Positions 535 through 64,000 of a stretch of DNA of 64,000 nucleotides are shown here, piece after piece. This DNA comes from Caulochytrium protostelioides (lineage: Eukaryota > Chytridiomycota > Caulochytriomycetes > Caulochytriales > Caulochytriaceae). Position 1 is the stretch's first letter, and each line of letters begins with the position of its first letter. Both the position numbers and the translations under genes were made by a program. Location: NCBI GenBank assembly GCA_003615045.1, contig ML014192.1, positions 1 through 64,000 of the forward strand, written 5' to 3'. A model generated the notes under the pieces. It worked only from the letters and a program-made list of their open reading frames with translations, ran no database searches and was not told the DNA's origin.

Positions 535-1600
535 GACGCCGTCAAACGAAATGATGCCGATCGACTAAACCGTGGTGCTAAGCGAGCCGATAAAGGATGG
601 AGGAGGAGACAAGTCTCGGATAACAGTGGGTCACACCGTGATAGCCCGACCTTTACGCCGAGCAAAAGCGATCAGTTCGATACCAGGGAAGATAAAATGA
701 TCAAACAAAGGAGGACAATGATTGCAGTATCTCGAGGATAGTGTAAAAGCAATGCTATAACAAGAATTGTAGCTCGAGTTTGAATTTGGATCCAATCATG
801 TGCAAGCAGCTTGAAAGGTAATGCGGATGAAATGTTTACTGGACGCACTGTCGATGTTTTGAATGTATCCTGCAGAGTGTTCACGTCAACCTAAAACTGG
901 CCACTGTCCACTCTGTGGACAATGTCCACTCTGAGACATGACATTAGCCTTGATGGTACGGAAGAAAGCGTTGGCAGAGTCAGTAACCCTGTCAGATTCA
1001 GGGAGATATGCGGCGCAACCGGCCTTTCAAACCGTCTGAATCAGTTCTTGATCGTTGCCGTTGGTTTGTGCTGATTGTGCCCTCGTTCGTTGTGATTGGC
1101 GCCAAGTTTCAAAAAGGCAGCGCCACTGGTGATGGCTGTGCTGCCACCGGGCGGAAACCGTGAACGGATCGTGGCGTCTAATGAGCCATTCCGCCAGGCA
1201 GATTCTAAAAAATACTATGTGTCGTGATAATGGCTACAATATTCCGCGGAGATGTGCCTAAACAACAAGTCTGAGCCTTGACGCCACAAAGGGCTGCGCC
1301 GACAACATTCCCTAGCCATTTCGACCATCAGCGACATGGCGTAGCCATTACGTCGGTTTTTGTCTGCCACTTTGCCGGCCACTCAATGTCCCCGGTCCGG
1401 TCAACTTTTTCTTTTTCGATCTCTTTCGCTTGCGAAACGTCGTGCCACTCTTTTTTCTGTAGCATCCTGCGGCTGGCGGTGAATGGTAGTGCACGCCGCC
1501 ACTCTTGAATACTGCCGCCCATAGCCATCATACTATCAATCCGCTAGCATGACCGCTGGACATCTAGAATGGACTAATTTTTTTCAACGAGCTTCTCGTG
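535..1600. other. Intergenic spacer upstream of the left-edge gene
   Basis: No convincing coding region on either strand. It presumably holds the promoter of the leftward gene. A short perfect inverted repeat, TGTCCA-CTCTG-TGGACA, lies at about 905-921, and a second TGTCCACTCTG follows immediately. Confidence 0.5.
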
Positions 1601-1951
1601 TATATAGGCTCATTCTTACTCAACACGGGCCCCATATCGTCCTTGGCCCCCAAGGATTCCTCACGGCGGCAATAGCGCATTCGGTCCAATGAGATTGCCG
1701 GCTACGGGCTGCATAGAGGCTTGTACGGGGATGCGGCACAACGCTGCAGGTCTGACCCGCATGGCCAGGCAGCGTCGGATGTTCAACGCGGCACTGAGAT
1801 CGCGGTTCACGACCTTGCCGTTGGCGACTTCACACCATAGCAAATCCCGGACCACGATACCCTGGCGCCGGCGTTGACTGGGTTTCAGGACCACATGGGT
1901 CTGGGCATACACCTGGGTCGTGCGGACCGGGTTGACCGGCGTCGGCGCGGC
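1601..1951 (-). mobile_element. Decayed Fanzor/TnpB-like element fragment, copy 1 (C-terminal RuvC-like tail plus 3' tail)
   Basis: On the minus strand this encodes a conserved tail: VYAQTHVVLKP, QRRRQGIVVRDLLWC, then GKVVNRDLSAALNIRRCLA, ending at TGA (1661-1663). The same protein and DNA recur near 23.4 and 63.1 kb. The core NRDLxAALNI resembles the third RuvC motif (RDxNAAxNI) of TnpB and eukaryotic Fanzor nucleases, where the Asp is catalytic. This copy keeps the Asp. The N-terminal domains and the first two RuvC motifs are absent. Homology begins abruptly after a pyrimidine-rich CTCTCCTCAG, which could be a splice acceptor or the breakpoint. The family call rests on motif recognition only. 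It is a remnant and not likely to make an active protein. Confidence 0.55.
1640..1656 (-). other. Perfect hairpin in the 3' tail of Fanzor-like copy 1
   Basis: TCCTTGG-GGG-CCAAGGA, a 7-bp perfect stem, lies just downstream of the copy-1 stop codon. The equivalent hairpin (CCTTGG...CCAAGG) is kept in copy 2 at 23789-23805 with a longer loop. In TnpB/Fanzor loci the guide (omega) RNA comes from the 3' end of the gene and its downstream flank, so this could be a relic of such an RNA. That role is inference. Confidence 0.4.
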
Positions 1952-2932
1952 CTGAGGAGAGGAGATAATGTTGTATTATAAGGTTGCGCAGCTTTTTCAT
2001 GATTGCCTCAACATCTCTTGAATGTTAGAATGTCAGAGAGAAATCATGTCCGATGAACGAGGAATTACATCATGTGAATTGCAGGGGACCATTATCGTCG
2101 TGGATCGTGGTCTCATTGAATACATAGACTCGAATCGATTTGATATAAAGAGATAATAGGCTGAGGTTCCACGTGCGGCACAATTGGTCGTGCAGGCGTG
2201 GTCTCTGAAGAGTGATCAATGGTGCAGCCTGCCGTAGGTGTATTCAATCCAGTCGGGCACATCGGACGATCGAAAGCCGTGGGGCGGCCCGCCAAAAGAA
2301 CCGTGGTGCTTGAGGTTGGCGGTCCGTGGCGGGCCGACCCGACCGGCCGACGGCGCCCCGTCTCTTCGCATCAGGTGTGTTCTATCCTGTTTTGCCGTGC
2401 CGAGCCAGATCTTGGCACGCGAAGACGATGAAAACCCGGCCTGATCAGCACAGTGCTGTGAAATGGGCTAGCTCACGTTGTTCGTTTGGCTCAGCCGCCC
2501 TATCGGCGAAAGCACCATTAATTGATCTTCGATATTTCTACTAGTACTTCGTCTCCACCTTCCCTTCCAGCCGTCGTCGACTCCTCGTTGTTCTGGTTAG
2601 ATCGGATCCGCGACTCCGATTCCGCTCGTTCAAACGACGTGGTCACAATCATCGCCAAGAACAAGCCATCGGCCAAAAAAAAAATCAGATTCGGTGTGGA
2701 CATCGTCGGTCGCTGGACGCTCTAGAGGCAGCAGGTCTGCTCTATTCGAGTGAGGACGTCCTGCAGGACCGCGGGGACCATTGTGGACGCCGGTTTTGCC
2801 CGTACGGGTAACTGTGTAATATATCCGCCTTCTGCCGCGGCGTCGACGACCGCTTCCGATCAGCGCTATAGCATCACGCCGATCAGCCGATTATTGCATT
2901 CCGAAGACGGCTCGTCGAACGAGATCGGCATC
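1952..2932. other. Spacer and probable 5' region of the dynein gene
   Basis: No supported gene. The stretch before 2933 should contain the promoter and 5' UTR of the dynein gene. An in-frame TAG at 2723 bounds the first dynein exon upstream. Short ORFs on both strands here look like chance. Confidence 0.45.
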
Positions 2933-5900
2933 ATGGCCGCGTCTCGTCCCAACTCGGGCGCCCACCGGCATACCTATGGCCCGCCTTCCCAACCGGCCGT
3001 GCAAGCCAAGGTTCATGGCACCTTGCCCACCGCGGACCAGTCTTCTCATCAAGCGCAGCAACTACATACCCGATCTGAGGCGTTGAAAGGTAAATGTCGT
3101 TTTTCAGAAGACATGATAGTCATTCTGTATCATGCTGCAGCCAGTGTCTGTCACATTAAAACTGTTTCCCGGGATTTCCTAACGCTGATTTATCTCCTAC
3201 TTGGTTTCCCATGTGATGCATACGTGATATTTCAGATTTGGTGGGCCAGTCTCGAGCGACGCGCTTGAACGGCTACCTTATTCCCGAAGGCCATCGTAAA
3301 GATGTCCGCATTGCTCATCACCCAGCCAAGCGGCTGGTTTCTGGGGGCCGGTCGCCTGTGGACGCGGTGCCCGTTCCGCTTCCCCGTATTCAAATGCGCA
3401 ATGTGCCTGATGAGACGCAGGAAGACGTATCCGGACGTCCCCGCTCCGCTGCATCGTTTTCTGAAGCTTCCCCGGAAGCGGAAGTCTTCCATCCGGTGGA
3501 AAAGACGCATCATGCATCTATGTCTGATGGTTCCACCTTCAAATCACTGCTGCTCGACTTTCTTATTCGTCGCCGTGAAGAAGCCGGCGTGCCCCACAGC
3601 AAGAATCTGAGTATCCCGAGCTCGATCTTGCCCATGCCCCAGCAAGTGTTGGAACGGCAGCTTGGTCACATCGACGATAATTACGTGCCTAAAAAGTCCT
3701 TCACCGAACGATATCTGGAAGATCAGCCTGCTCTTGACGGCAAAGCTGTAGCCAGGTTTTATGCCTACTTCACCGAGAGCATTCGAGAGCACACAGAGGG
3801 CGATCTTGAGCCGGAATGGACGAATGCGATCCTGAACATGCTACCGCAGTCTCTCGTTTGCCAGTTCCCCCCGGAGTCGCGCGCTTTGTTTACTGAAACG
3901 AGAGAAGATTTTCTGGAAAGCAACAAAACTGCCGCCGTAAGCTTCATTTTGCGGTCACCCTTGGAAGGCCAGAATCCTACAAGTGCTCCGCTTGAGCCCG
4001 ACACGTTTGGCAATGAGACTGAAGACGCCCGCGCTGCACGGCGGGAGCGTTTTGCAAAGGCGCGACGTGCTTTGACCGCCCATCTTCACCTGTTGCGGCC
4101 TTCCATGCAGAAGCTGCTGGCGCTGGGCGACACGTACAAAGACATGCGCCTTTTTGGACACATGTCAACTTCTGTGGCGCACGGATCGAATGCACGTCAT
4201 GGGCCACCGCTTTCTGAAGCGATTCGGATATCGGCATTCCGCAGCTCGTTGTTGGTGCAGTCGGAGAAGAGCAAGGAGCTCATCACCAAGACCTGGATGA
4301 TGGCCGCTGGCAAGATCTTGGCGCGTGAGGCCGAGGCGGCGGCGGCAGACAACGAGACATTGCCTCTCAACTTCTACCTGACGGGGCAAGCCTTGCTGAA
4401 AGCCAGCATATACAACATCATGGACGCCTCGTTGAAAGATATCTGCCAGACTCTGATTCTGCCGACGAATGAGGATGGCCAGGTCGAAGGCCCGTCTCAC
4501 TTGTTGGTGCGTCTCTACCTGAAGAAGGACAAGATTGAATTTGATCCGCCGCTGTCGGATGTGATGGAGCTCGTGGCTGAAAGCTTAGACTACCTGCAGC
4601 GCACCATCAGCAACATCCCGTCTCTGGAGCTTCTCTACCACAATCCGAAACTCCGCTATGAGATGGCCACCAGCGATAAGGAAGTGGACTTTGCTCAACT
4701 GAAGCTCCTGGGTCTCACATCGAATTGTGAATTCAGCGTGCTTCTCAATGCACATGAAATTGAAGAAGCACGTGTCCGCATGACGGCTTCGGTCACGCAG
4801 GCATGGAAGCAGTTGATGGAATATCTGAACCGCTACGACGCATATTCCCCCCTTTTGACGCTGCATACGGAGCTCCTGCCGGCCATGAAGCAGATGCTTG
4901 AGGTCAATCCCAACTTCTGGCAGTGCTCCCAAGAAATCGAGAAATACCGCAAAATTGCATCGAGTATCACCATGGACAACCCAGCGCGTCAGTCGCTGCC
5001 GCTCTTTGAGCTGCACCTAGATGAGCTTAACCGCAACTTTGTCACTCGGGCCCAAGAAGTTGCCAATTTGGCCATTCAGTTTATTGTTCAGCGCCAGATC
5101 ACCGATCACCAAGAGATATGTGCCAGCTATCAACGTATTGCTGACGTTGCCTTGGCCGTCCCTGACAACTTCAAAGAGATGGCGGATCAGATGGCATTCA
5201 TGGATCAAGCGCGCGAGGTGGACCTTCCTGCGTTGCAAGAGCGTCTCGACGCTTCTCGCTCCATCTTGCTATACCTCATGGGCGCGACATTCTTGTCCAA
5301 AGATCATTTGGCCATCAACAATCAAGCCTTTGGATGGCCGACACGCATCATTCCGATCCTCGAACAAAATTGCGCCATCTTTGGAGAGGCCAAGGAGAAA
5401 TCAGCGGTGACGCTGCGTCAGCGCCGCAATGAATTTGAGCTGGAGCTCGAGCAGTTTACCAAGCAAATTGCCGAGTTTGAGCAAGTGGGTGATCTGGAAG
5501 ATATGCCCTTCTACATCAAGAAGGTTCAGACCCTTACCAAGCAGTTGCAATCGGCTCAAGACACGGTGGCTGCGTTTAATCGCGAGGAGAAGCTCTTCGG
5601 TTGGCAAGTGAGTGTTTACCCGCAGCGCAAACAGCTGCTTTCCGCATTGGAGCCTTACCAAGCGCTTTACAACATGGCGACCAACTTTCAGAAATCGTTT
5701 AAACGATGGATGGATGGCCCGCTGTTGGAACTGGAAAGCGATCAAATTGAGGAGGAAATCGATAGTCTCAAACGCGAGATCTTCCGCTTGCTGGGCTCCA
5801 TGGGCAAAGAGAATCCGTCGAAGAACATTGTTCGCCAAGTCCAGGAGCGCTTGGAGGAATTCCTGCAAAACGTGCCTGTGATCCAGGTGATGTGCAATCC

Positions 5901-8900
5901 GGGTCTCCGCGATCGTCACTGGGAGCGGATGTCGGCCATTGTTGGCATAGAGCTCAAGCCAGATGCGACGACAACGCTTCGGAGAATGCTCAAGAACAAC
6001 ATCCACCCGCACTTGCCGCTTTTCCGTGAGATCAGCGATATGGCGTCCAAGGAGTTTACCATCGAGAAAAACCTTAACAAAATGATTGCCGACTGGCAGC
6101 CGCTCACCTTTGCGCCGATTCCTTACCGCGACTCCGATACATTCGTGCTCGCCTCTGTGGACGAAATTCAGCTGCTGCTCGACGATCACATCGTCAAAGT
6201 CCAAAGCATGCGTGGTTCCCCCTATATCAAGCCTCTGGAGTCCCAGGTGAAGGAATTTGAGCAGCGCTTGCTCATGAGCCAGGAAATCGTTGACGCGTGG
6301 TTGAAAGTGCAGTCCACATGGTTGTATCTGGAGCCCATTTTCAGTAGCGAGGATATTCTTGTGCAGATGCCCGAAGAGGGCCGCATGTTCAAAAGCGTGG
6401 ATTCCAGCTGGAAAACGCTGATGCGCGCGGTCGATGCTCAGTCGGCAGTGATGGCGGTTACGGCGATGCCCAATCTACTTGACGAGCTCAACAAAGACAA
6501 TCAGTATCTTGAGCTGATCATCAAAGGTCTCAACTCGTACCTGGAGGTCAAGCGTCTGTTTTTCCCGCGTTTCTTCTTCTTGTCCAACGACGAGATGCTC
6601 GAGATCTTGTCTGAAACCAAAGATCCCACCCGTGTGGAGCCGCATCTCAAGAAGTGCTTTGAAGGTATCAACCGCTTGGAGTTTGACCCCGAGATGAACA
6701 TTCTGGCCCTCATCTCGAGCGAGAAGGAGCGTCTGCCCTTGACCGAAACGATCTCCACTGCCGATGCGCGTGGCTCGGTAGAGCGCTGGCTTCTTCAAGT
6801 CGAGCAAGGCATGATGGCCAGTGTGCAGCACACAATTGGTCAGGCCGCCACCGCTTATACGAGTAAGCCACGCAGGGAGTGGGTCCTCGACTGGCCCGGT
6901 CAAGCGGTGTTGTGCGTCGCCCAAATCCTGTGGACGCTCCGCGCTGAAGAAGCCATTGCCCGCGGCCCTGCCGCCACCAAAAAGTTCTTCCAAGTGTTGA
7001 ACGACGAGCTGAACGAGATTATCGAGCTGGTGCGCGGCCAGCCGAGCAAAATGGCCCGCTTGACGCTCGGCGCGCTCGTGGTTCTCGACGTACATGCCCG
7101 CGACGTTATCGGTGACTTGTGCGCGAAGCAGCTTTCGAGCGTCTCCGAATTCAGCTGGCAGAGCCAGCTGCGATACTACCTGGATCCCGAGAACCCCACC
7201 AATGGCGACGTCACAGTTCGCATGATCAATGCCGAGAAGCGTTATGGATACGAGTATCTCGGAAACAGCTCGCGACTCGTCATCACGCCTCTCACGGACC
7301 GTTGTTACAGGACCTTATTTGGGGCCCTCCAGCTCAACCTCGGTGGTGCGCCCGAAGGTCCTGCTGGCACGGGAAAAACTGAAACGACGAAGGACTTGGC
7401 CAAGGCCTTGGCCAAACAGTGCGTCGTCTACAACTGCTCGGACGGCTTGGACTATCTGGCGATGGGCAAGTTTTTCAAGGGGTTGGCATCGGCCGGTGCT
7501 TGGGCCTGCTTCGATGAGTTCAATCGTATCGACCTGGAAGTACTGTCGGTGACGGCTCAGCAAATTCTGACGATTCAGCGTGCGATCGCCGCATCGGCCA
7601 TCGAATTCAATTTCGAGGGCACCACGCTTCGGCTGAACCCCACATGTGCTGTGTTTATCACCATGAATCCGGGTTATGCCGGTCGCAGTGAGCTGCCCGA
7701 TAACCTGAAGGCGCTGTTCCGTACTGTGGCCATGATGGTTCCCGATTACACCTTGATCGGTGAAATTACGCTGTACAGTTTCGGGTTTGTGCAGGCACGT
7801 ATGCTGGCTCGTAAGATCACGGCCACCTACCGTCTGTGTTCAGAACAACTGTCGTCCCAGGATCACTATGACTACGGCATGCGTGCCGTGAAAAGTGTAT
7901 TGACGGCGGCTGGAAACCTGAAGTTGATGTACCCGACGGAGCAGGAAGATATCCTCGTTCTGCGCAGTATCATGGACGTCAACTTGCCCAAGTTCCTCTC
8001 TCAGGACATCGAGCTCTTCCGTGGTATCGCTTCTGATTTGTTCCCTGGTATTACCCTCCCGAAGCCGGACTACGACGAGCTCATTTATGCCATTGAAGAT
8101 GCCTGCCGTCACTACAAACTGCAGATTGTCGCACCCTTCGTCGAAAAGGTTATCCAATTGTATGAGATGATGCTGGTTCGACACGGCTTCATGTTGGTCG
8201 GTGAGCCCTTCTCGGGCAAGACGTCTGCTTACAAGGTGCTGGCAAAAGCATTGAATGAGCTCTATGCACAGTCACAATCGACTAAACATGGATGGCTTCC
8301 CGTTCAGTACCGCGTCATTAATCCGAAAAGCATTACGATGGGCCAGCTGTATGGCGAGTTTGACCCGGTCTCGCACGAGTGGACCGATGGTGTGATCGCC
8401 ACGACATTCCGATACTTTGCCAGCTCCACTTTGCCCGATCGTTACTGGGTCCTTCTAGACGGACCCGTCGACGCCATCTGGATCGAAAACATGAATACGG
8501 TGCTGGACGACAACAAAAAGCTCTGTCTGATGAGTGGTGAAATCATCCAGCTCAGCAATACCATGAGTCTTGTCTTTGAAGTCGCCGACCTCGCTGTGGC
8601 CTCCCCCGCGACTGTCAGTCGCTGTGGTATGATCTACATGGAGCCTGAGCGCCTCGGCTGGCGTCCGCTTTTTACCAGCTGGCTAAATGAGCAGTCAGCC
8701 CTCGTGAACATCAAAGATTGGGTGGCCGCGCTATTCACGACATTTGTCCCCAAACTGCTCGCGTTTGTGAAGAGCGACTCATGTGTAGAGCTCAGCCTTA
8801 CCACGCCGATCGGGTTGGTTAATGCCTTGATGAATTTGCTAGCGGGCCACAATGGGATTTTTGAAGTCTACAAGAATCATGATGTCCAGCTCAAGACGGC

Positions 8901-11900
8901 CTTCTATGGTCTTTTTGTCTTCAGTACACTCTGGTCAATTGGTGGCTGCTTGGATCTGACCTCCCAAGACAAATTTGACCACCATTTCCGCGTGCTGATT
9001 GAATCCCAGTCCGAGCAGCTCGTCTTGCTTCCCCAGGATGGTTCGCTTTATGATTACCAGCTTCACGTTCGTACCGAAGATATTCAATCTGGAGAAGACT
9101 TGTGCCTGTGGTCGCTTTGGACAAACGCAATTACAGACTTCCAGATTGCGCCTGATGCCGAGTTCCGCGATATTGTCGTGCCCACCAAGGACACAGCGCG
9201 ATACAAGTATCTCATTGACGTGCTCATTAAAGCACAAGTCGCAACCATGCTCATTGGCCCAACTGGCACCGGCAAGAGCAAGTACATCATGGACAAACTG
9301 CTGAACGAGCTCGACACCTCTACATTCCAGCCGTTGTTTGTCAACTTCTCTGCCCGAACGCGCTCGAGTCAAGTGCAAGACCTGCTGATGTCTAAGTTTG
9401 AGAAACGTCGCAAGGGTGTCTACGGTGCCCCGACCAACAAAAAGTATGTGGTCTTCGTGGATGACGTCAATGTCGTCCAAAAGGAAGTGTATGGCGCACA
9501 GCCTCCGATTGAACTCTTCCGCCAGCTGCTAGACCATGGAAACTGGTACGACAAGAAGGATACCACGCGTCTCGAGATTGTTGATGTTCAGCTAATTGCG
9601 GCGGCCGGGCCGATGTTGACCGGGTCGCAGAACATCGTGACCTCGCGTTTCCTCCGTCACTTCAACCAGATTGCCATCAACAGCTTTAACCAGCGCACGT
9701 TGGGCGAGATCTTTTCCATGATTCTCAAATGGCAGTTTTGTGAGCGGTTCGATTTCACAGAGAAGGTCAAGCGGTTTGCAACGAAGGCCCTCGCTCCGGC
9801 ATGTACGCGGATTTTTCAGTGGGCTCTATCCAATCTGCTGCCGACGCCGGCGAAGATGCACTACACGTTCAACCTCCGTGACTATTCGCGCGTGGTCCAG
9901 GGCATCTGCCGGGCGTTGCCGGAGCATGTCTCGGAGCCCGCTCATCTGATCAGTCTGTGGACCCACGAGACAGCACGGATCTACTATGACCGTTTGACGA
10001 ACGACACCGATCGTGAAATGCTCATCAAAGCCATGGAAGATACCGCCTTCGAGGTACTTCATGCCGACAAGCACGACGTGTTCACCAGCCTGAAGAATCC
10101 AGACGGCAAGCTAACAGGCGAGACGCTGCGTGGTCTGCTTTACACAGATGTGCTGTCGGCGAGTGACGACCGCGTCTCACGTGGCACGCAGCCAGCGGCT
10201 GGTGACCACGACGATGAGCCGGGTTCCGACGTCCCGACGATCTCGCGCAGCAACGAGTACATTCAGATCAAGCACTATCACGCTCTCCACGCGCTCATTG
10301 AGTCAAGCCTGAACGAGTACAATCTGATTCAGAAAACCAAAATGAATCTCGTTCTGTTCCGATTTGCCGTCGAGCATGTTCTTAAAATCTGCCGCATTCT
10401 CAAGCTGCAGGGTGGCCATGCCCTGCTGGTCGGCGTCGGCGGCAGCGGTCGCCAATCATTGACGCGCTTAGCCTGCTTCCTGTGTGACATGGATGTCTTC
10501 CAGATCGAGCTCAGCAAAAACTACAGTATCGCGGATTGGCGCGAGGACCTTAAGAAGCTGCTGATGATCGCTGGATGTGATGCCCGTCCAGTGACGTTCC
10601 TTTTCCCCGACGTGCACATCAAATCGGAAAGTTTCCTCGAAGACGTGAACAGTCTGCTAAACAGCGGTGATGTCCCCAACCTATATGCTCCCGATGAGTT
10701 CCAGGCGATCCTGGAGAAAGTGGGCGCCGCGGCGAACGAAGCTGCGGCCCAGGCGGCGGCACAGGGGGGTGAGGAAATTCAAATGTCGTCCATGATGCTG
10801 TATTCGTTCTTTGTGGAACGCGTCAAGCGCAACCTCCACATTGTTTTGTGTATGTCGCCCGTCGGTAGTGCTTTCCGCAACCGGCTGCGTCAGTTCGGTG
10901 CAGTCGTCAACTGCTGTACCATCGATTGGTTCCAGGCTTGGCCAGGCGATGCGCTGCAGGCGGTGGCCCAGCAGTCCTTGAGAGATGTTTCCCTGAATGC
11001 CCAGCTCGAAGAAAAGGTGGTTCATATGTGCCGTTACTTCCATACTACCGTGCAGGAACTTTCCACCCGATTTGCCGCCCATGCGCGTCGCTACAACTAT
11101 GTGACTCCCACGAGCTATCTTGGTTTGCTGGAAAGCTACAAGAACCTGCTTAGCATCAAGCGCAACGAAATTTTGGCCATCCAGCGCCGATACCAGAGCG
11201 GTCTTAGCAAGCTGGAGTTTGCTGCTAAGCAAGTCATGCAGATGCAGAGTGATTTGACCAACCTACAGCCGCAACTTGTTCGCACGCAGCAGGAAACGGC
11301 AGATATGCTGATCCGTATCGAGCGCGAATCAGTCGAAGTGGAAGCCACGCGGACTAATGTTTCGGCCGAAGAAGCGATAGCAATGTCCAAGGCGAAAGAA
11401 GCTAAGGCTATCAAGGACGACTGCGAGGCCCAGCTGGCCGAAGCCTTACCTCTGCTTCGTTCGGCTCTGGCTGCTCTTGACACGCTCAAGAAGCAGGACA
11501 TTGATCTGGTCAAGAGCATGAAGAACCCACCGGACGGCGTGAAGCTGGTGATGGAGGCTGTCTGCGTCATGAAAGACATCAAACCGGACAAGATTCCGGA
11601 TCCGTCTGGATCAGGCAAGATGATCAACGACTACTGGAAGACCTCCTTGAAAATGCTGAGTGATCCACGATTCTTAGATTCACTGAAAGCCTTTGACAAG
11701 GACAACATCCCGCCCCATGTCGTCAAGAAAATCCGCACGTCCTTCATGACCAATTCGGAGTTCAAGCCCGAAAAGGTCCGCAATGCGAGTTCAGCCGCCG
11801 AAGGTCTTTGCAGCTGGATTCTCGCTATGGAGGCCTACGACCGCGTCGCGAAGGTCGTGGCACCCAAGCAAGTGGCTCTTGGCCAAGCTGAAGCGGAGTT

Positions 11901-14900
11901 ATCCGTCACCATGACTAGTCTCAACGAAAAGCAAGCCGTCCTGAAAGCTGTTGAAGACCGTCTGGCATCATTGAATGCGGAACTGCAGGGTTTAGCTGAC
12001 AAGAAGGTGCGTCTTGAGGGTGAGGTTAAATCGTGCGAGGAGCAGCTCGACCGTGCCCAAAAGCTGATGGGTGGTCTCGGCGGCGAGAAATCTCGTTGGA
12101 CCATCATTGTGCAGGACATGGAGATGGCTCTGGTTGACCTGCCCGGCAACATTCTCATTGCATCAGGCGTGATTGCCTACCTGGGCGCATTCTCCAAGAC
12201 GTACCGCCAGGAGTGCACCACGGACTGGATCCAAGAATGCCGACGCGTGGGCATCCCTTGCTCCGAAAAATTCACCTTGTCGTCGATATTGGGCGACCCC
12301 ATCCAGATCCGTGACTGGGCCATCTACGGCATGCCGTCCGACAACTTTTCGATTGACAACGGCATCATCATCAAGAACAGTCGCCAGTGGCCACTTATGA
12401 TCGATCCTCAAGGCCAAGCCAACCGATGGATCAAGCAGATGGAGGCGTCTAACAATCTGCAAGTCATCAAGCTGACTGATTCCGACTACATTCGAACGCT
12501 GGAAAACGCCATCACATTCGGCCAGCCCGTGCTGCTGGAGAATGTCAAGGAGGAGCTCGACCCTGTCCTCGACAGTGTGCTGGGCAAGCAAATCTTCAAA
12601 TCTGGCGGTGTGAACTGCATCCGGCTGGGTGACGCGATCGTGGAATATAGCGACAATTTCCGTTTGTACATCACGACGAAGCTCCGCAATCCCCATTATC
12701 TGCCTGAGATCTCAACGAAGGTGACGCTGCTGAACTTCATGATCATTCAAGAAGGCTTAGAGGATCAACTTCTCGGCATCGTAGTGTCCAAAGAGCGGCC
12801 CGAGCTTCAGGACGAAAAGAATCAATTGATCATGCAGAGTGCCGAGAACAAAAAACGACTAAAGAGCATCGAAGACCGCATTCTCGAGATTCTCTCCTCG
12901 TCCGAGGGCAACATTTTGGAGAATGAGACAGCCATTCAGGTTCTTTCGTCGTCTAAACTGCTTTCGGTGGAACTGAGCGAAAAGCAAAAGGTAGCCGAAG
13001 AAACCGAAAAGAAGATCGATGAAACGCGCGAATCTTACCGCCCAATCGCTGAGTTTGCAAGTAGCGTGTTCTTCATGGTGGCCGATCTGGCCCAGATCGA
13101 CAGCATGTACCAGTTTAGTCTGGGCTGGTTTGTTGATCTCTACGTCAACGCGATCACACACTCGACCAAAAGCAGCGTCGTCACGCGCCGTCTCAAAAAC
13201 TTGGAGAATCACTTTACCTTCTTGTTCTACTCGAACGTGTGCCGCAGCTTGTTTGAGCGCGACAAGCTGCTGTTTGCTTTCCAGCTGTGCACGACGGTGC
13301 TTCGAACGCGGAACCTGATCAAGTTGCCTGATCTCAACTTCCTGGTCAATGGCGCAGCAGGCATGCCCCCTGTTGCTGACGGTCCGCACATTGGTCCACG
13401 CCCCGAAGACGCGACGCTGTTTACGGATCGTGTTTGGCAGGAACTGATGCTGCTGACGGCGGTCAGCCCTGACTGGAAAGACATTCTGCGCCACATCAAG
13501 CTGAGCGAGTGGCAAGCGTTCGCCGAAGCCGAAGATCTGTTTAATGCACCGCTCCCCAAGACGGGTTGCAGTCATCTGGATGAACTGCAGAAGCTGGTGC
13601 TGATTCGCGTGCTGAAGCCGCAAAGTCTGATCCCTGCCGTGCAGGAATTCATCAAGCTCAAGATGTCTCAGAAGTTTATAGAGCCGCCGCCGTTTGATTT
13701 GGCCGCCTCGTTTGAGGACAGCAGCCACTACGCGCCTTTGGTCTTTGTGCTGTCGCCCGGAATGGATCCTATGGCCCAATTGCTCAAGTTTGCGGACGAT
13801 TCGGGCATCGGGAGCAGCCGCGTCTTTTCAATTTCTCTCGGCCAAGGTCAAGGCCCGATCGCGGCGCAAATGATCAGTGAGGCGCAGGCGAAGGGCGACT
13901 GGGTCGTGCTGCAGAACTGCCACCTAGCCACCAGCTGGCTGAGCTCGCTGGAAAAGATCGTTGACGACATGCTGACGGCGTCCAACAATCCGCTGGACAA
14001 GACGATCAATCCGTCCTTCCGGCTCTGGCTCACCAGCTACCCCAGCCCCAGCTTCCCGATGTCGGTTCTCCAGCGTGCCATTAAAATGACGAACGAACCG
14101 CCCCGTGGTTTGCGTGCCAACATTCTGAAAACCTACCTGACGGATCCCATCTCGTCACCGGAGTTCTTTTCATCGCTGGCCGCCGGACCGCCCGAGGCAC
14201 AGCCCGAAGTCAAGCAGGACATCTTTGAAAAGCTGCTCTTCTCGCTGTGCACGTTCCACGCTGTGGTCCAGGAGCGTCGCCAGTTTGGTCCGCTCGGTTG
14301 GAACATCCCGTACGAGTTCAACGAGTCTGACTTGCGGATCTCGGTGCGTCAGCTGCAGATGTTCCTCGACGGAAGCCCCGCCGGCATCGTGCCGTTTGAT
14401 GCGCTGCTCTATCTGACGGGCGAGTGCAACTACGGCGGTCGTGTGACGGATGACTGGGATCGCCGCACGCTCAACGCGATTCTCGGCAAGTTCATCAACG
14501 TGCACGCCATCAAGCAGCCCAACTATGCCTTCTCGGCCTCGGGTCACTACACGGTGCCCGCCACGATGACGGCCGCCACGAGCTACGAGGGCTATCTCGA
14601 GCACATCCGCCGCTTGCCGCTCAACCAGAAGCCCGAGGCCTTCGGCATCCATGACAACGGCGACATTGCCCGCCAGCTCTCGGACACCAAGTCGCTGCTG
14701 GACACGATCGCCAAGACACAGGACAACGGCGGGAGCGGCGTGGCGGCGACACGTCCCGGTGCCAATGCGGAGGATGCGCTGACCGAAATCGCGCGGTCGA
14801 TCCTGGCCCGCATCCCGGCGCCCTTCGACGTGGCCGCCGTGATGCGCAAATACCCTGTTGACTACCACGAGAGTATGAACACGGTACTGATCCAAGAGCT

Positions 14901-15639
14901 AACCCGGTTCAACCGTCTGATCATTTTGATCGCCACGAGCCTGCGGAACCTGCTCAAAGCCACGGCGGGTCTGATCCTGCTCACGGAAGAGCTCGAGGAC
15001 ACGGGCAAGAACTTGATGCTTGGCAAGGTGCCCACGTTCTGGGCGGCCAAGTCGTACCCGTCGCTGAAGCCGCTGGCCTCCTACATCGATGATTTTGTCG
15101 AGCGCATTCACTTTTTCCAACGGTGGATCGACCAAGGACCGCCGGCAGTCTTCTGGATGTCGGGTTTCTGCCTGACGCAATCGTTTATTACGGCCACGCT
15201 GCAAAACTATGCGCGTCGTCTCGCCATCCCCATTGACGAATTGACGCTTGAGTTTGAGGTCCTCGACATCACCAAGGCTAGCCAGGGCCCTGACGAGGGC
15301 GTTTATGTCTCGGGCCTATACCTGGAAGCCGCGCGATGGGACCCCGAGGCCCGATGCATCGTGGACAGTCTCCCGTCGGTGCTGTACAACTACCTGCCGC
15401 TGGTTCACTTCAAACCCCTGCGACGCATCATGAACGCTGAAGGCCAGCCTGAGTCGGCGGTACCCAAGAAGCCGAGCTACACCTGCCCCGTGTACAAAAC
15501 CAGCGCGCGTCGCGGCGTGCTAAGTACGACAGGCCACTCGACCAACTTCGTACTGCCCATCCAGCTGCCCATGGATCCGTCGACCACCGAAGAGCACTGG
15601 ATCTTGCGCGGTGTCGCGGCCTTGCTTCAGCTCGACTAG
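2933..15639 (+). CDS. DNAH7-like: Axonemal inner-arm dynein heavy chain (DNAH3/7/12 type)
   Basis: Motor subunit of a single-headed ciliary inner-arm dynein, which uses ATP to slide axonemal microtubules. The model has two exons: 2933-3089 and 3236-15639. The 146-bp phase-1 intron restores one frame (ALK-D-LVGQS), giving about 4186 residues, normal for DNAH3/7/12. The start at 2933 is the first in-frame ATG, with A at -3 and G at +4. Visible parts in order: N-terminal linker/tail; AAA1 Walker A GPAGTGKT at about 1427 and Walker B ACFDEFNRI at about 1475; AAA2 GEPFSGKT at about 1708; AAA3 GPTGTGKS at about 2061; AAA4 GVGGSGRQSL at about 2452; coiled-coil stalk with microtubule-binding domain at about 2680-2940; AAA5-6; and a C-terminal domain ending LSTTGHSTNFV and HWILRGVAALLQLD. 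AAA1 and C-terminal wording match DNAH7/3/12 best; the exact orthologue is not settled. It indicates a flagellated life stage. Confidence 0.95.
3090..3235 (+). other. Intron 1 of the dynein heavy chain gene
   Basis: Donor GTAAAT follows GAAAG at 3089. Acceptor TTTCAG ends at 3235. A CTGAT branch-like motif lies about 50 bases before the acceptor. Removing it joins the only two frames that give a continuous dynein N-terminus (phase 1, GAT codon across the junction). Confidence 0.75.
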
Positions 15640-22549: not shown

Positions 22550-23413
22550 GGACGGAACCCGCCTGGCCCGCGTCCTCGCGGTCGGCGGCCGCCGCTGAGC
22601 AATGCGCCCGTGAGCACGGCGCGTCCGCCGCCGCCGCCGCAGCCGCCGCCGCCGCCCCCCTGTCTGGCCCGTATCACGCGTGGTCGCAGAGGCCGGGGAG
22701 CGGCCGCCACGCGCCTCTGGGCCGTGGGAGCCGCGTGGCGACTCGTGAGACGTCCTGGACGCGCCTTGGTAGCGGCGCAGGCGGGACAGGGGGCGACCCC
22801 CAAGGGCGGGGAGGCCGGCCGGTGACACGCAGCGATGGCGGTGGCCGCGGGGAGCAGGTGAGGGCAATCGCGACGGGCGGGTGAGCGGCCATCACGTCGC
22901 GCGACGCGGACGCCGTGGAACAGGATCCCTCGGATCACGCAAGACGCAGCCGCCGCTCGCCGGCATGGGTCGTGAAACAGCGATGCAGCTCGAGCGAGGC
23001 GATGGTGTCCCGAACGATGGGCGGCGGAGGCGGCAGCGTCGCCTGCGCTCAAGCCGAGTCGAACAGACATCGAAGGTCGCCTTCGTGCCTTCGCGGCGAC
23101 GGCGCGACACAGCCTCGTCATACATACGCGTTCCTGCGGATCGGAGTCCCCGGGTGTTCCAGTAGGTCTTGACACCCCTCCCGGCAGGATCGACCGAGAT
23201 CGGCCCATGCTCCGGCCGAGGCCGGGGCCAAACGCATGAGCTCGGCGTAACGGATCTGGCATCTGGGTGTCATAAGCCACAGCAATACAAGAAGAGGGCC
23301 GGCTATTCTTCATAGGCCTTCTGATGCAAAGCAGGCGAATGTTGCTGCAGAAGAACAGCCGTGCAACCCCAGCGCTCGTGTAACCCCGGCGCCTTGGCTC
23401 TTAGGCGGCCCCC

Positions 23414-23844
23414 CTGACCAAGGTTCAACCCCGGGACACCACGGTCGTGCCGATCTTTCCTGCGTCCCGGGCGGGCGCTCCTCCGGCCGCGCCCATGCCG
23501 GTCAAACCGGTCCACAAGACCCGGGTGTATGCCCAGACGAATGTAGTCCTGAAACCCGGTCAACGCCGGCGCCAAGGGATCCTGGTTCGAGGTTTGCTGA
23601 GGTGTGATGCCACCCACGGCAAGTTGGTGAACCGCCATCTCAATGCCGCGTTGAACACCCGACGCTGCCTGGTCTCACGGGTCGGACCGAATGCGTTGTG
23701 CCGCCACCTCGGGCAAGCTCATCTGCAGCCCAAGGTCGGCAAGGCCATCCGGCAGAAAACCGAATGCGCTACTGCCGCCGTGGGAAATCCTTGGGGGCAC
23801 CAAGGTGGGTACGGTGTTCGTGTTGGGTAAGAATGAGCCTGTAT
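23414..23844 (+). mobile_element. Decayed Fanzor/TnpB-like element fragment, copy 2
   Basis: Plus-strand copy of the family also found near 1.6 and 63.1 kb. It reads VYAQTNVVLKP, QRRRQGILVRGLLRC, GKLVNRHLNAALNTRRCLV, and then LCRHLGQAHLQPKVG. The catalytic Asp of the RuvC-like motif is replaced by His (NRHLNAA), and Ile by Thr in NT, so this copy should be inactive. Upstream it shares LTKVQ...TVVPI...AS.AG with copy 3, so the parental protein extended further N-terminally. The TGA that ends copy 1 is TGG here, and the frame reads on to a TAA near 23828. The 3' tail with a CCTTGG/CCAAGG hairpin (23789-23805) and the end sequence GTAAGAATGAGCCTGTAT is shared with copy 1. Confidence 0.55.
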
Positions 23845-24326
23845 GTTCTCTAAAAAAAGGTAAGGGATCGAGTCAATAAATAAGTATGATGAAGGAAGGT
23901 GTGGGAGAAACAAAGGCAGCGGTGAGCGCCACAGGACATGGAGACCAAGTAAGGGCGCGCCGTACGGCATGCCATGCACACATGTCTGGCGATGTGACGC
24001 CATAGAGCCATTCGCACTTGTCGTTGGGTCTGACTCGTCGTCATTGCATGCTTGGCGCCAGCTTGCGTGTTTGGCGAGCGAGGTCACGTCGCAACCATCG
24101 TACGCATCGCCGGGCAGAAGCGAATTCGGGGCATATCAGAAGGGGAGTCGGAACAGACAGCTGTTGGCGACGTCGCCATGTGTATCAAGCATCACCGTGC
24201 GGTATGCCAAGTGCCATGCAGAAGCCCACACCTCCCTGTCAGCATGGGGCGAGCTCAGCACAGGTCCATGCTGGGTCGTGACAACGGGGGAAGCGGTGTT
24301 CGGTGTCGATCGATTAACAAGCACAC
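23845..24326. other. Spacer downstream of PAM18
   Basis: No supported gene on either strand. It carries the 3' region of the leftward PAM18 gene. Confidence 0.45.
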
Positions 24327-45751: not shown

Positions 45752-47863
45752 CTACATGACCGCGTTGCAAACAAGATTGGCCAGCACCTGGTTCTCGACA
45801 TCGATCTCGAGGCGCGTCGCATGGTTGCTGTTGCACTCCGTGAAGGGCGCGCCGCGGCGGTCCCCCAGCAGATGCGTGTCCCAGATGGCGACGCCAGCCT
45901 GCGCCATGCGCCAGCGCAGCAGCAGATCGGTGGCGAGCAGACGCATCCGCGAGTAATAGCGTTGTACGGGCTCGCGCGGGTAGTAGGCCTGCGCGCCGCG
46001 GTAGATGGCCAGGCGAGTGGGGCCACCGTTGCTCGTCGGCGCGTTGGGCTTCGCATCAGCGCGCCACGGCCGCCGGTAAACGTTCTCAATCCTCTCCATA
46101 AACGACTCGAGGTTCGTCACGGTATGCCCATGGGCGACAAACGCGGCATCCCAGTTGGCCAGCCCGATGACCGAAAGATCTGGCGCCCGCGCATCCGGGA
46201 AGTGATGTTCCTGGAGCTCCTGCGTCATCAGGGTCTTGTTGAGCGCGATCTCCCAGTCCTCACCGCGCTTCACGATGCCGTGCCACGAGGTGTACACCGT
46301 CTGGATCGGGCTCGTGCCGATGCGGTCGACGAAGTGCCGGCCGGTATCGTGCGAGACGACGTCGGTGTCGAGGTCCCAGTCCTCGCAAAGACAGTTGTGC
46401 GATTTCGGATCAAACCACGTGCTGCACCACGCGCCGCCCGACGACACGGCCTTCCAGTAGCGACGCGTGTTCGAGTCGCCCGCCAGATGCATGTACGGGT
46501 AGTGCGGCGCTAGGCAGTCCGTGATGAGCTGGTCATACGTGTAGTGGCGGTAGCGGCAGTCGTACGGGACCCAGACGCGGTTGTCGTCAATGACCTTGAG
46601 TGTATACTCGTCCACGTGGGCGCGCGTCTGCCGCCAGTACGCCTCAACATCACCCACGAGCCGGTCAAGCGGGATCCAGCGGCCGAAATGGTCACCTTGC
46701 GTGCACACGGGCAAGGCGCGGTAGTCCGCGAGTGTGAGCTCGGTGCCCGGCACTTCGAGCTTGAGCTCCATCAGCGGCGGCTGCGCAATCAGCGACGGCG
46801 CCCCCCCGCTCGTCGTCGTCAGCGTCACGAACGGAATCGGCTGCGGCGCGTAGGGCGCCGCGTCTGAGCGGTACAGATGCCACTCGTAGTTCTGGTACTC
46901 AATCAGCGCCGTCATGACATACCGGTCGGGGTCCATCAGCGGCACCATCGTCGGATACACGCGGACCACGGCGTGGTCGAACGTCTCCTCCCACGGCACG
47001 GGGCTGTACTCGGCATGGCTGTAGTAGCCGTGCGCGCCCTTCGCCTCCCACAGCAGACTGTCGGGCGCGAACCCGGGCACGCGCAGGGTCGGCTGCGAGC
47101 GGAGCTTCGCGGCGACCGCGCGGCCCGGCTTCGGCGTGATGGACACCATGTAGGCGCACAGGACGTCCTGCTGGCCGCGGTGCCACACGGCCTCTCCCTG
47201 CGCCGGCGCCGACGGCCCGCCGATCCGACGTTGCTTCGCCAGCGCCGTGTCCGGGATCACGACCGCGCCCAGATAGTCCTCCAGCGGGCTCGCTGGGTCG
47301 GCGAACGCACGCTCGAGGGTCGCGCGGTCCAGCGGGGGCAAGTCCGCACACGGTCCCGTGCGCGGGGCCGTCGTGCCCTGGTAGAAGTGGGCGTCCGGCG
47401 AAAGCTCCCACCCGAAGTGGCGGAACGCCGAGTAGGCCGTATGCGGCGCCAGGTTGCCGTGCAGGTATTGGCCCCACGTCTGCCACTGCGTCGGGTAGCT
47501 GGCATTAGAGAACTGCGGCATCATGCCCGTCGGGTCAGCGTAGGTCGTCGGATTCACGTTAACAAGCACGGCTTCCCTGCGCTGCGGCGCCGCCGCATCG
47601 CGGGGCGCCCGTCCGGGGAGCCTGAAGTCGGGGTCGGCGACATGGCCGCCGAGCTGGTGGATGACCACGAGACAGACGATGGCGAGGAGGGCGCAGCGCA
47701 CCAGCGCCTGGTGTGGCCGCGCGGCACCGAGACACGCCAGCGGGCTCAGAGCCGCGCACACCGACGCCGTCCAGCCGCGCAGCGGAGAGCGCCGATACGT
47801 GCCGTCAGGGGCGCTCTGAGGCGAAGCATCGGCACCGAGGAAGGGCAGCGTGTCATAGCTCAT
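45752..47863 (-). CDS. Type II membrane SGNH/NXPE-like protein, paralogue 1 (DxxH changed to NxxH)
   Basis: A 703-residue protein with a short cytosolic tail, a signal-anchor helix at about 52-71 (VRCALLAIVCLVVIHQL) and a large lumenal part. An about 300-residue N-terminal module contains DVLCAYMVSITPKPGRA and a VPGF..D motif. The C-terminal module has GDSNTRR (Ser464), which fits block I of SGNH/PC-esterase folds, WVPYDCRYRHYTYD before it, and ends ATRLEIDVENQVLANLVCN, resembling the NXPE family ending. The expected catalytic DxxH is N678-S-N-H681 here; paralogue 2 has DSNH. Such folds in TBL, CAS1 and NXPE proteins modify glycans in the Golgi; substrate is unknown. The first ATG in frame is at 47863. 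Confidence 0.78.
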   Translation of the reverse strand: MSYDTLPFLGADASPQSAPDGTYRRSPLRGWTASVCAALSPLACLGAARPHQALVRCALLAIVCLVVIHQLGGHVADPDFRLPGRAPRDAAAPQRREAVLVNVNPTTYADPTGMMPQFSNASYPTQWQTWGQYLHGNLAPHTAYSAFRHFGWELSPDAHFYQGTTAPRTGPCADLPPLDRATLERAFADPASPLEDYLGAVVIPDTALAKQRRIGGPSAPAQGEAVWHRGQQDVLCAYMVSITPKPGRAVAAKLRSQPTLRVPGFAPDSLLWEAKGAHGYYSHAEYSPVPWEETFDHAVVRVYPTMVPLMDPDRYVMTALIEYQNYEWHLYRSDAAPYAPQPIPFVTLTTTSGGAPSLIAQPPLMELKLEVPGTELTLADYRALPVCTQGDHFGRWIPLDRLVGDVEAYWRQTRAHVDEYTLKVIDDNRVWVPYDCRYRHYTYDQLITDCLAPHYPYMHLAGDSNTRRYWKAVSSGGAWCSTWFDPKSHNCLCEDWDLDTDVVSHDTGRHFVDRIGTSPIQTVYTSWHGIVKRGEDWEIALNKTLMTQELQEHHFPDARAPDLSVIGLANWDAAFVAHGHTVTNLESFMERIENVYRRPWRADAKPNAPTSNGGPTRLAIYRGAQAYYPREPVQRYYSRMRLLATDLLLRWRMAQAGVAIWDTHLLGDRRGAPFTECNSNHATRLEIDVENQVLANLVCNAVM

Positions 47864-55000: not shown

Positions 55001-56289
55001 CGCCCACCGCAGGGCCGGAGGCGAGGGTGACTTCGGCTTCTGTTTTTCCCCGCCCCCATCCCCTGCCCAGGCCCCAACGCCCCATCCCATGCCCATTCGC
55101 ATCCTTGCTATCTCTCTTTTGGAAAACCATTGGAGCGCCTTGGTGGAGGAGAGGCGGCGCGCGCCAGCGCCAGCGCCAGCACGCGATCCCGCGAGCGCGA
55201 CGCGCCCGTCATCATCGTCGTCGCGGGTGGCCGTGGCGCAGCGGCTGGGCTGGCTGGTTCCTCCTCTCAGGTCCGCACCGGCATCGTGCCGGTGCATCTC
55301 CCTCTCTCTCCCTCTCCCGCGGTGGTGGTGCAAGGAGGCCGCAGGCGACGTAAGCCAGAAGGGATGCATGGCTCGACTCGGCTTGACTCAGCTTGGCCGC
55401 GGCCGCCTGGCCTTGCCTCAGCGCGAACTCGTCATGCATCGCATCGCATCGCATCGCATCGCGTCGCATCGCGTCGCATCGCATCGCGTCGCATCGCGTC
55501 GCATCGCATCGTATCGAACCACGGCTGTCAGGACAGGCATCGCGAGACGACGCGACACCGACACCAAGGCCGGCGCCCACGGTCTGCGCGACCGCCTAGG
55601 CCCACCACCGCGCAGCCCGAGCCACGCTTCGGACGAAGCACACGCTCGTCTCAGGCCCTCGCCTCGCGTCGCCCTGAGCTGCGGGTGGGCGGGCGCGGAT
55701 GGAGGCGGAATGGACAAGGGCGAGTGAGACAGGATGGAATGGGAGCGAGGGTCGTCATGCCTGCCCGGTCTCGGCCGACGGCGCGGCAGCGTCATGAGGC
55801 GGCGCGACGACCCCAGGCCCATCGCCCCTCGATGGTCCCATGGCCTCACGGCCCGTCATCCCGGCCCCGGCGTCAGCCTCGGCCTTGGGCTTCGGGCTTC
55901 GGGCCGCGGGCCGCGGGCTTCGGGCGCAAGGACCCACGAAGGGGGCGGGCCTCACGGCCAAGGAAAAAATAACGACCACGACGCGGTCCTCCTGCGCACG
56001 GGGTTCGCTGCGGTCCACGCATCGCGCATCATCGTCGCCGCGTCGCGTCCCGAGCTGAAGACCTTATCTAGGGCTTGCTTGGACGCGCACGCGTTTCGGG
56101 GATATCTGCTTTCGGCTGATGTGACCACGGAATTTGTCTGCATGCTTATACCTGCTGCGTATCTGCCCTCGGTTCTGCGACGTCTCAAGCATACTCTATC
56201 TCCACAGCCGCCCACCCCATTGTCTTCATTTTTTCTCTTTTTCTTGCCCCCCGAGCCCCCTTCCCCCAACCTCCATTGAAATCGTCACC
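52097..56289. other. Long spacer, about 4.2 kb, before the HMG-like gene
   Basis: No convincing gene in six frames. Right part has tandem repeats. The last about 100 bp before 56290 is strongly pyrimidine-rich, as in leaders of highly expressed genes. Confidence 0.4.
55436..55515. repeat. Pentamer minisatellite (GCATC/GCGTC), 16 units
   Basis: Sixteen consecutive 5-bp units alternating GCATC and GCGTC, last unit GTATC. Because five is not divisible by three, it makes ORFs in different frames. Confidence 0.9.
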
Positions 56290-62250: not shown

Positions 62251-63124
62251 ATCAACATGGCCCCCCGATCATGGGTGACAAGCGCCCCATGGCGCTACGG
62301 CGCCCACTCGGCTGGCCGGCGCGAGGAAAGTGGGGTCAGCGCCAGCGAGACGCTACCGACAAGACATTGCAAAACGCCGAGCGTTCCCTTATAGTGAGGA
62401 CGCCGGGATGTATCGGAACACCGACGACGGGCTCCCTGGGAGGCGATCCGAGGCCGCCCGATGGCGAGAGAAGCCCCCTTTCCACGGTACTCGTTCCTGG
62501 GGGTGTCCCCGCCCCGTGAAGCCAAGATTGCGACCACAGCGCCTGCTGGCGTCGTCCCGGTTCGGTCCGGTGGGTGGTCCGGTGCCGTCAGCGCCGGATG
62601 CCAAACGTCCGAGAGGGTCACAAGCCATTACAGGAGTGTTCGCCCTCGGGCAAGGATCGTGCGCGCGCCAGTGTGCATGTGCGCGCTTGCGTCGACGTCG
62701 ACGTCGGCGTCGGTGGTCATGGATGCGGAGGTGGCCATGGATGTAGCGTTTTGAAGCCGACCTCGCGTGGGCTGGTCGGCCGGCTGGTTGCTGTTGGACA
62801 GGCACGCAGGGATGAGAAAAGCCAGGATCTGCTCCATCGCCCTTGAGATTGAGCCGAATCCCCGGCGGGAGTGTCGAGATCATCAATGACATGCGCGACA
62901 ACAGCCTCGATCACTGTGTGATCGATCACGAAGCCATCGATACCGCCGATATATGTGCTGGTCGTCGGACAGAAGCCACCCGGTGGTTGTACCAGAACGA
63001 AAACGTCTCACAAAATGTCGCCATCGCCTCGTGACCACCCCCTTTTTGCTCTAACGTTACGATTACCATCTTGCCATCACTCATCTTTTAGTGATAGCCA
63101 CGTCGTGGCACCCATTGTATCATG

Positions 63125-63545
63125 ATATATATAGGACCATCCTTACCTAACGCACACGTCATCCCCTCCATGGTGCCTCCAGGGGTCCCCCACGGCGGCA
63201 GTAACGCATTCGGTTTATTGCCGACCACAGATAGGAACGGGGCTTGCCCGGGGATGCGGCACAACGCCATCGGCCTGACCTGTGAGGCCAGGCAGCACCG
63301 GATGTTCAACGCGGCATTGAGATCGCGGTTCACCAACTTGCCGTGGGTGGCATCACCGCAGCAAATCTCAGACTACGGTCCCCTGGCGCCGGCGTTGAAC
63401 GGGTTTCAGGACCTCATGCGTCTGAGCACACACCTGGGTCCTCTGGACCCAGTTGACTGCCTGCCTGAGTAGGTGCCCGCCTGAGACGCACGAGAGATCG
63501 GCACGGCCGTCGGGTCCTGGGCTTGCATCTTGGCCAGAATCTCAT
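63125..63545 (-). mobile_element. Decayed Fanzor/TnpB-like element fragment, copy 3
   Basis: Third family member, minus strand. The downstream part reads GKLVNRDLNAALNIRCCLA, LCRIPGQA and NKPNALLPPWG, keeping the Asp of the RuvC-like motif. The upstream part reads GIPDEILAKMQAQDPTAVPI, which aligns with copy 2. The frame is broken between them by an in-frame TGA and a small deletion (GGTGAT versus GGTGTGAT). Beyond 63545 the same frame continues with a further TGA. The end sequence GGTAAGGATGGTCCTATAT resembles the tails of copies 1 and 2. Clearly inactive. Confidence 0.5.
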
Positions 63546-64000
63546 CCGGTATGCCTCTTCATGACGCCCTCACTCGGAGGAACTGTTGAACGATGCCGCG
63601 CCGAAAGCATGAAATCATCACGCAGGCAATCAGCCATGCCCGCTGGTCCTTCCCGACATCCCAACCAAAGCGACAGCATGAACGTGATTTCTCCACCTAA
63701 AGCAACGACATGCATCCTGAATTCACGTTGTCATGTGGGGAGTCGCCCACATCGGTGCCTCAGCAGGACGTGAGGCGATGTGAGCGTGCGGGCTCGCCAC
63801 GACGCGAATCCGGCAAGCGATGAGCATCGACGGCGTCATCGGCGGAATCATCCCTGCGGACGTCTGGCCGGATCCCCACCGCAGGCCCTGCGGTCACGCG
63901 CTTCTTGACGCGGGGCAATGCATCGTGGCCCACGACGCCAGGACCGAATCATGCCGCTCACACCCCCGTCGAGTTACGGTGTTGTCACCATCCGTCCTTC
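63546..64000. other. Right-edge spacer
   Basis: No supported gene. On the minus strand a frame continuing from copy 3 (DVGKDQRAWLIACVM, then RRGIVQQFLRV) might be an older upstream part of the element. It contains stops and is not claimed. Confidence 0.35.

Follow-up and report, generated by a model that had tools for sequence, protein, structure and literature searches.

The three repeated protein tails dispersed over the window (the whole stretch of DNA analysed, 64,000 nt of contig ML014192.1) are, in an explanation that we consider rather probable with the mode of spread included, inactive, 5'-truncated copies of one Fanzor1 transposable-element family, and the assignment of this family to Fanzor1 is itself close to certain. 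The host, Caulochytrium protostelioides, is a chytrid-like mycoparasite according to extracts of its genome description (PMC6784888), and its genome contains several hundred such tails, mostly shortened from the 5' end. The preliminary description of this DNA had reported three dispersed copies and quoted their shared motifs, all of which are present at the three places (Table 1); to this are now added a copy number in the hundreds, the polar 5' truncation, a family-wide loss of the zinc ribbon and a hairpin after the stop codon.

Table 1. Fanzor1 element copies and their hairpin regions in the window.
Feature	Position	Strand	Basis
Copy 1, 3' end of a 5'-truncated Fanzor1 element	1578..1959	-	tblastn (residues 544-627), DNA boundary, RuvC-III motif
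Copy 1 hairpin region (candidate guide-RNA scaffold), degraded	1616..1690	-	covariance model R1, 45.3 bits; copy outside the model
Copy 2, 3' end of a 5'-truncated Fanzor1 element, RuvC-III Asp to His	23410..23858	+	39 other places among 40 scored, tblastn, boundaries
Copy 2 hairpin region (candidate guide-RNA scaffold)	23754..23830	+	R1, 76.8 bits; copy among the 44 in the model
Copy 3, 3' end of a 5'-truncated Fanzor1 element, stops and frame change	63120..63549 (3' limit estimated)	-	tblastn, boundary
Copy 3 hairpin region (candidate guide-RNA scaffold)	63143..63219	-	R1, 75.0 bits; copy outside the model

The copies measure about 380-450 bp and not ~350 bp as first estimated. Copy 1 starts at about residue 544 of P0001, a relative of 629 aa, and runs to an A-rich 3' end with an A7 run; it reads ...VYAQTHVVLKPSQRRRQGIVVRDLLWCEVANGKVVNRDLSAALNIRRC and keeps the third catalytic Asp in its RuvC-III motif, VNRDLSAALNI. 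The replacement of this Asp by His noticed earlier in copy 2 is confirmed in ...VYAQTNVVLKPGQRRRQGILVRGLLRCDATHGKLVNRHLNAALNTRRC, and copy 3 has stop codons in frame and also changes frame, so that VNRDLNAALNIRCC is read in another one. The N-terminal part is absent in all three, as had been stated, but this reflects a 5' truncation common to the whole family and not three separate lesions. With six relatives as tblastn queries, E values ranged from 1e-7 to 6e-20 at the three copies, the remaining matches in the window being 0.36 or worse. Re-scanning the window by blastn with other family copies returned the same three places, each matched by at least three loci, and no fourth place matched by that many. 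A 421-bp piece around copy 2 matched copy 2 itself and 39 other places in the genome, 77-82% identical (40 scored of 538 candidates). These repeat matches, the tblastn E values and the count of a tail 24-mer compared with its control (see below) rule out a chance motif. The only Pfam match in copy 1 was the TnpB ribbon family PF07282, at an E value of 0.025 that falls short of the cut-off, and copies 2 and 3 matched no Pfam domain; another Pfam domain as the identity of the repeat was rejected on these results.

The identity of the family was established from its longer copies, which encode a protein of ~620 aa. A 382-aa piece of one of them (L061) retrieved 77 related proteins (7993 candidates scored), mostly 580-700 aa long and including proteins from Caulochytrium and Chlamydomonas eustigma, and a profile search added 16 more, giving 93 proteins in all. 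In an alignment of 32 of the 77 relatives (A1), the invariant residues are D381 (in DPG), E546 (in a DEFRTT-like motif) and D590 (in RDxNAAxNI), with D381-P-G and E546 held by 32/32 sequences. Over the larger set, the RuvC-I DPG motif is held by 91/93 relatives; by pattern, 85/93 have the alternative catalytic Glu, which lies in DEFRTT/S ahead of the ribbon position, and 91/93 the third Asp in RDxNAAxNI. In the host copy L064 the first of these motifs reads DPGRTN.

Searched against the PDB, the A1 profile matched the solved Fanzor1 proteins of Parasitella parasitica (PpFz1, 5e-18), Spizellomyces punctatus (SpuFz1, 2e-9) and Guillardia theta (GtFz1, 3.5e-4). No Fanzor was retrieved from the PDB by single sequences, whether pieces of host copies or P0001, so that a profile was needed to reach this match. 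The AlphaFold model of P0001 (pLDDT 90.6) retrieved SpuFz as its best Foldseek match in the PDB (E 1e-19, TM 0.66-0.70), with SpuFz, PpFz and GtFz all at 1.1e-14 or better and Cas12 proteins ranking next, the fold being assessed on this relative and on the 32 relatives of A1 and not on a host copy. The combination of DPG with the alternative Glu is a Fanzor fingerprint in extracts of Yoon et al. (2023; PMC10711439), and the profile match, the fold match and this fingerprint together identify the family as Fanzor1. The family name offered earlier, Fanzor/TnpB, is therefore sustained by the profile match to three solved Fanzor1 proteins, by fold and by the D-E-D residues; no full-length relative lacking an RNase H-like fold appeared. 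The product is predicted to have been a TnpB-group RuvC nuclease guided by RNA. PF26935 is precomputed on many of the relatives. No relative on a viral contig was confirmed among 600 pattern matches. In one relative annotated in C. protostelioides (CXG81DRAFT_23488), a fragment of Fanzor is joined to a long C-terminal part of unrelated sequence, through an artefact of the gene model or a genuine gene fusion.

None of the 83 relatives (of 93) in which the Glu-Asp segment is recognisable has a CxxC in it, whereas the solved Spizellomyces and Parasitella Fanzors have CPRC/CPKC at that position; both of these, the two compared structures with a comparable ribbon segment, carry the zinc ribbon. In extracts of the literature, the C4 zinc finger is called 'strictly conserved' (Bao and Jurka, 2013; PMC3627910) and the zinc ribbon is ascribed to 'many' Fanzors (Yoon et al., 2023; PMC10711439), and none of the PMC titles and abstract openings listed on Fanzor or Caulochytrium names a ribbon-less Fanzor group. 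Since the 2023 fingerprint requires no ribbon, the subfamily is filed as a Fanzor1 variant. The absence of the ribbon from the window copies reflects its loss in the subfamily and not decay, and this loss would also explain why PF07282 gave no match in the whole genome (4 candidates scored). An Ala/Pro-rich insert occupies the place of the ribbon in the host copies, where the Glu-Asp segment measures 82-141 aa in the four copies readable in one frame, compared with 35-63 aa in 18 relatives caught by a strict pattern. A subfamily that keeps its active-site residues without the ribbon would test the purpose of the ribbon and offers candidate RNA-guided nucleases, since a large share of the relatives in public databases seem to be of full length. 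On the coding strand of L055, L036 and L059, the insert between RuvC-II and RuvC-III is rich in Ala, Pro and Arg and has, by eye, a loose rhythm of ~18 aa, the VYAQT motif of the preliminary description being its last unit; when two loci were searched for tandem repeats, the insert did not come out as an array.

The copy number was estimated over the 20.9-Mb assembly (337 contigs) with three 24-mers, at up to 3 mismatches. Matches numbered 422 near RuvC-III, 98 directly downstream of RuvC-I and 33 close to residue 59, and each of the three reversed-pattern controls gave 0. On the loci in hand, the 24-mers recovered 28/30 (3'), 25/29 (middle) and 18/24 (5'), rates that are optimistic because the 24-mers were chosen on those same loci. 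Used as a query, the 5' terminal 381 bases returned 18 candidates. Among 30 loci picked by their 3' end, all reach at least residue 618 and none reaches residue 60, their starting points being scattered over residues 90-587. In the set of 28 picked by the middle, the match extends to at least residue 600 in 25 loci and begins before residue 60 in six; the 3' part is missing in three (L039, L045 and L048, the C-terminal match at the last belonging to a neighbouring copy), and L058 meets a contig end. In these counts two loci (L031, L037) were dropped as repeats of others (L011, L003), and L040 and L041, 99% identical, were both kept among the 28. Taken together, the two sets of loci show that the loss is strongly one-sided. 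With its hundreds of ends, the genome documents naturally, and on a large scale, how 3'-anchored copies spread and how 3' ends evolve.

The full element probably measured ~2.3-2.6 kb and consisted of a 5' end beginning CTGCACAGGC..., a TATA-like box, a single ORF of ~620 codons, a hairpin of ~80 nt from the stop codon and an A/T-rich 3' end. Near-full copies have a common start context, with the TATA-like box ~200 bases 5' of the ATG, and share the 5' base at CTGCACAGGC in about five independent copies, counting the pairs L100/L101 and L103/L104 once each. These pairs have similar flanks also upstream of the element 5' end, which suggests duplicated segments or insertion into another repeat. 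At the 3' end, subfamilies end in AACTCAATATA, in AAATGAATATA or in a small hairpin and an A-run; this end is often directly preceded by GGGCCTGTAC or GGGCCTATA, and one subfamily has the hairpin GAGCACGTATGCTC near it. GGGCCTGTAC is the inverted counterpart of the 5'-end CTGCACAGGC, a short pair matching by eye at ~10/14 bases that resembles the asymmetrical terminal repeats described for Helitron2 in extracts of PMC3627910; in Helitron2-type elements the 5' repeat lies at the very end and the 3' one upstream of a 3' hairpin. Two copies (L102, L104) keep both ends and have internal deletions.

The element may have spread as a non-autonomous passenger of rolling-circle (Helitron2-like) machinery, whose one-ended copying would start at the 3' end and often stop early, leaving 5'-truncated copies. 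This is the preferred, unproven mechanism, to which we attach about an even chance. It has a precedent in Chlamydomonas, where Bao and Jurka (2013; PMC3627910, extracts) attributed 3'-anchored copies of Fanzor1 elements to one-ended rolling-circle replication of the Helitron kind. The C. reinhardtii elements CRe-1, -2 and -3, non-autonomous Helitron2 elements of the Fanzor1 group in that source, are likewise present at hundreds of loci, with 5'-truncated copies, intact 3' ends, internal deletions and short asymmetrical terminal repeats. As given in the same extracts, however, their genes contain introns, a family-dependent share of them has target-site duplications and their ends are shared with real Helitrons, none of which was seen here; the T-rich tract at their truncation points was likewise absent upstream of those in 46 loci. 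The Helitron replicase profile PF14214 gave 0 matches in the genome and matched no control genome either. Target-site duplications showed no excess over mismatched pairs (51 and 33 loci), a test of little power with copies ~20% apart. From its description, CMe-1A of Cyanidioschyzon merolae is another similar Fanzor1, with ~150 old copies ~80% identical to their consensus, no inverted repeats and undetermined duplications; some of its copies still encode an intact protein, and none intact was seen here.

Scattered 5' truncation with intact 3' ends, some of them A-rich or AATA-rich, would also arise if LINE machinery had acted on the RNA of the element by target-primed reverse transcription, as with SINEs and processed pseudogenes, and LINE-type frames do exist in the genome: among its 19 RVT_1 matches, L066 and L068 (G000:C311, C234) have a reverse transcriptase by PF00078 and, by our reading, an endonuclease-like part. 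We nevertheless consider this unlikely. The longest copies extend 5' of the TATA-like box, and if this box is a promoter, an mRNA would not contain that sequence, so that LINE copying explains the polarity and not the inclusion of the promoter; L102 and L104 retain both ends despite their internal deletions; and the lack of target-site duplications above the null counts against it. The two LINEs, whose 3' ends are undefined, share a single 27-base match with the family copies. Rolling-circle copying from the 3' end would account for the polarity, the deletion copies with both ends and the 5' ends that include the promoter-like region. The Fanzor itself may have helped its own or related elements to persist.

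The preliminary description had expected a full-length parent elsewhere in the genome, and near-full-length relatives do exist; no intact one was found among the candidates scored. With the C-terminal half as protein query (125 scored of 1171 candidates), the matches listed include open frames of up to 526 aa, the 526-aa frame beginning in unrelated sequence, and an N-terminal search (150 scored of 205 candidates) gave frames of up to 695 aa among the matches listed. The 695-aa frame was rejected as an intact copy, as ~40-65 Fanzor residues match beside an unrelated open frame. On the minus strand of L106 (G000:C46:25900-28900), a short piece of Fanzor sits next to, or inside, a long open frame of unrelated sequence, possibly through capture by a host gene or by chance.

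The family is old, its copies being ~20% apart. Across 64 copies, rare variants (in one or two copies) are spread over the three codon positions as 200:216:172, whereas shared variants (in six or more) are biased to the third position (51:42:73). The copies thus decayed without visible constraint, whereas the masters of the subfamilies were selected for their protein, which supports the protein having been needed while the family was active. Pairwise differences by codon position show a clear third-position bias in the RuvC-II stretch (0.198, 0.153, 0.256), a mild one around RuvC-III (0.177, 0.164, 0.212) and none in the final coding part, downstream of RRCLA (0.245, 0.258, 0.251); the 24 shared variants of the untranslated part are too few for comparison. 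A rival reading is that whole DNA transposons lost their 5' parts through later deletions that spared the 3' end, whether by chance or because selection acted on the RNA. The age of the family and its internally deleted copies fit such a history, but deletion should strike both ends, and a 3' loss in 3/28 loci stands against a 13-fold drop in copies towards the 5' end; selection, for its part, finds no constraint among the rare variants. We regard it as improbable.

The ~80 bases from the stop codon onward form a long imperfect hairpin, whose region was retained in 3/3 window copies by the covariance model R1. Of 64 copies, 56 passed a hairpin score, and the 44 left after removing 12 with large indels or odd length form alignment A3. 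Here 73.4% of cells pair, against 38-50% when the structure is slid, a value favoured by the structure having been drawn from L043, itself one of the 44. The covariation score of 0.165 compares with 0.049-0.102 in the slid controls and was reached by 0/500 shuffles, with pairs changing among G-C, U-G, C-G and U-A at one position and from C-G to U-A at another. An alternative structure (from L027) pairs 69.7% of cells and scores 0.144, reached by 7/500 shuffles. The measures least swayed by relatedness are less distinct: 58/500 shuffles reached the count of double-change pairs and 37/500 that of further pair types, and double-change pairs number 15 in the hairpin frame and 16 and 18 in two slid versions. 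RNAalifold returned no consensus structure and no pairs on either of two alignments, and Rfam no match in three loci. Folded singly, 14/15 stretches (15 of 41) have z scores below zero, 2/15 fall below -2 and one stands at +2.1. The hairpin as a conserved structure is thus supported but not settled.

By analogy with S. punctatus, where, in extracts of Saito et al. (2023; PMC10432273), a 75-nt guide-RNA scaffold lies just past the stop codon, the hairpin may be an omega-RNA scaffold. The SPu-1 element of that fungus, which encodes SpuFz1, resembles the present family in fold, D-E-D residues and chytrid host and, as far as the extracts go, perhaps in a conserved ~75-nt stretch, coding for RNA, that directly follows the stop codon, and in its many protein-less copies (134 ghost loci), which are found here too. 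It differs in having the zinc ribbon and, from the same extracts, terminal inverted repeats of 30-33 bp and intact copies; no long inverted repeats were noticed and no intact copy was seen here.

A post-stop hairpin at the constant end of the element also fits copies made by the Fanzor itself, through RNA-guided cuts and a repair that copied another element from its 3' (guide-RNA) end and aborted early. TnpB-type nucleases are reported to promote element copying after a cut. The topic is discussed in Saito et al. (2023; PMC10432273, extracts). The same pattern, however, is expected without Fanzor activity, and no guide, target motif or insertion-site homology was shown in this analysis, which leaves this route very improbable next to rolling-circle spread. 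A slightly bolder version, and a shade less probable again, has the ribbon-less Fanzor1 subfamily (~90 mostly unnamed public proteins) multiplying from its guide-RNA end by its own RNA-guided cuts and repair copying, with several hundred solo guide-RNA loci that could have programmed protein from a few masters.

Elsewhere in the window, a single open frame of 4140 aa (3217-15639, plus strand) presumably encodes a dynein heavy chain of the axonemal type, as would suit a fungus that forms zoospores. Two neighbouring similar frames on the minus strand (45752-48034 and 49979-52192), both with GDSN..R..WK, NWDAAF and LGDRRG, are probably a tandem duplicate. A 950-aa frame on the same strand (57368-60220) has long Ser runs and a zinc-finger-like stretch, CAFCHTTRTPMFRHGPPGWTPLCNRCG, which we take to be GATA-type. 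Finally, positions 55436-55516 hold a GCATC array of ~16 copies of the 5-bp unit.
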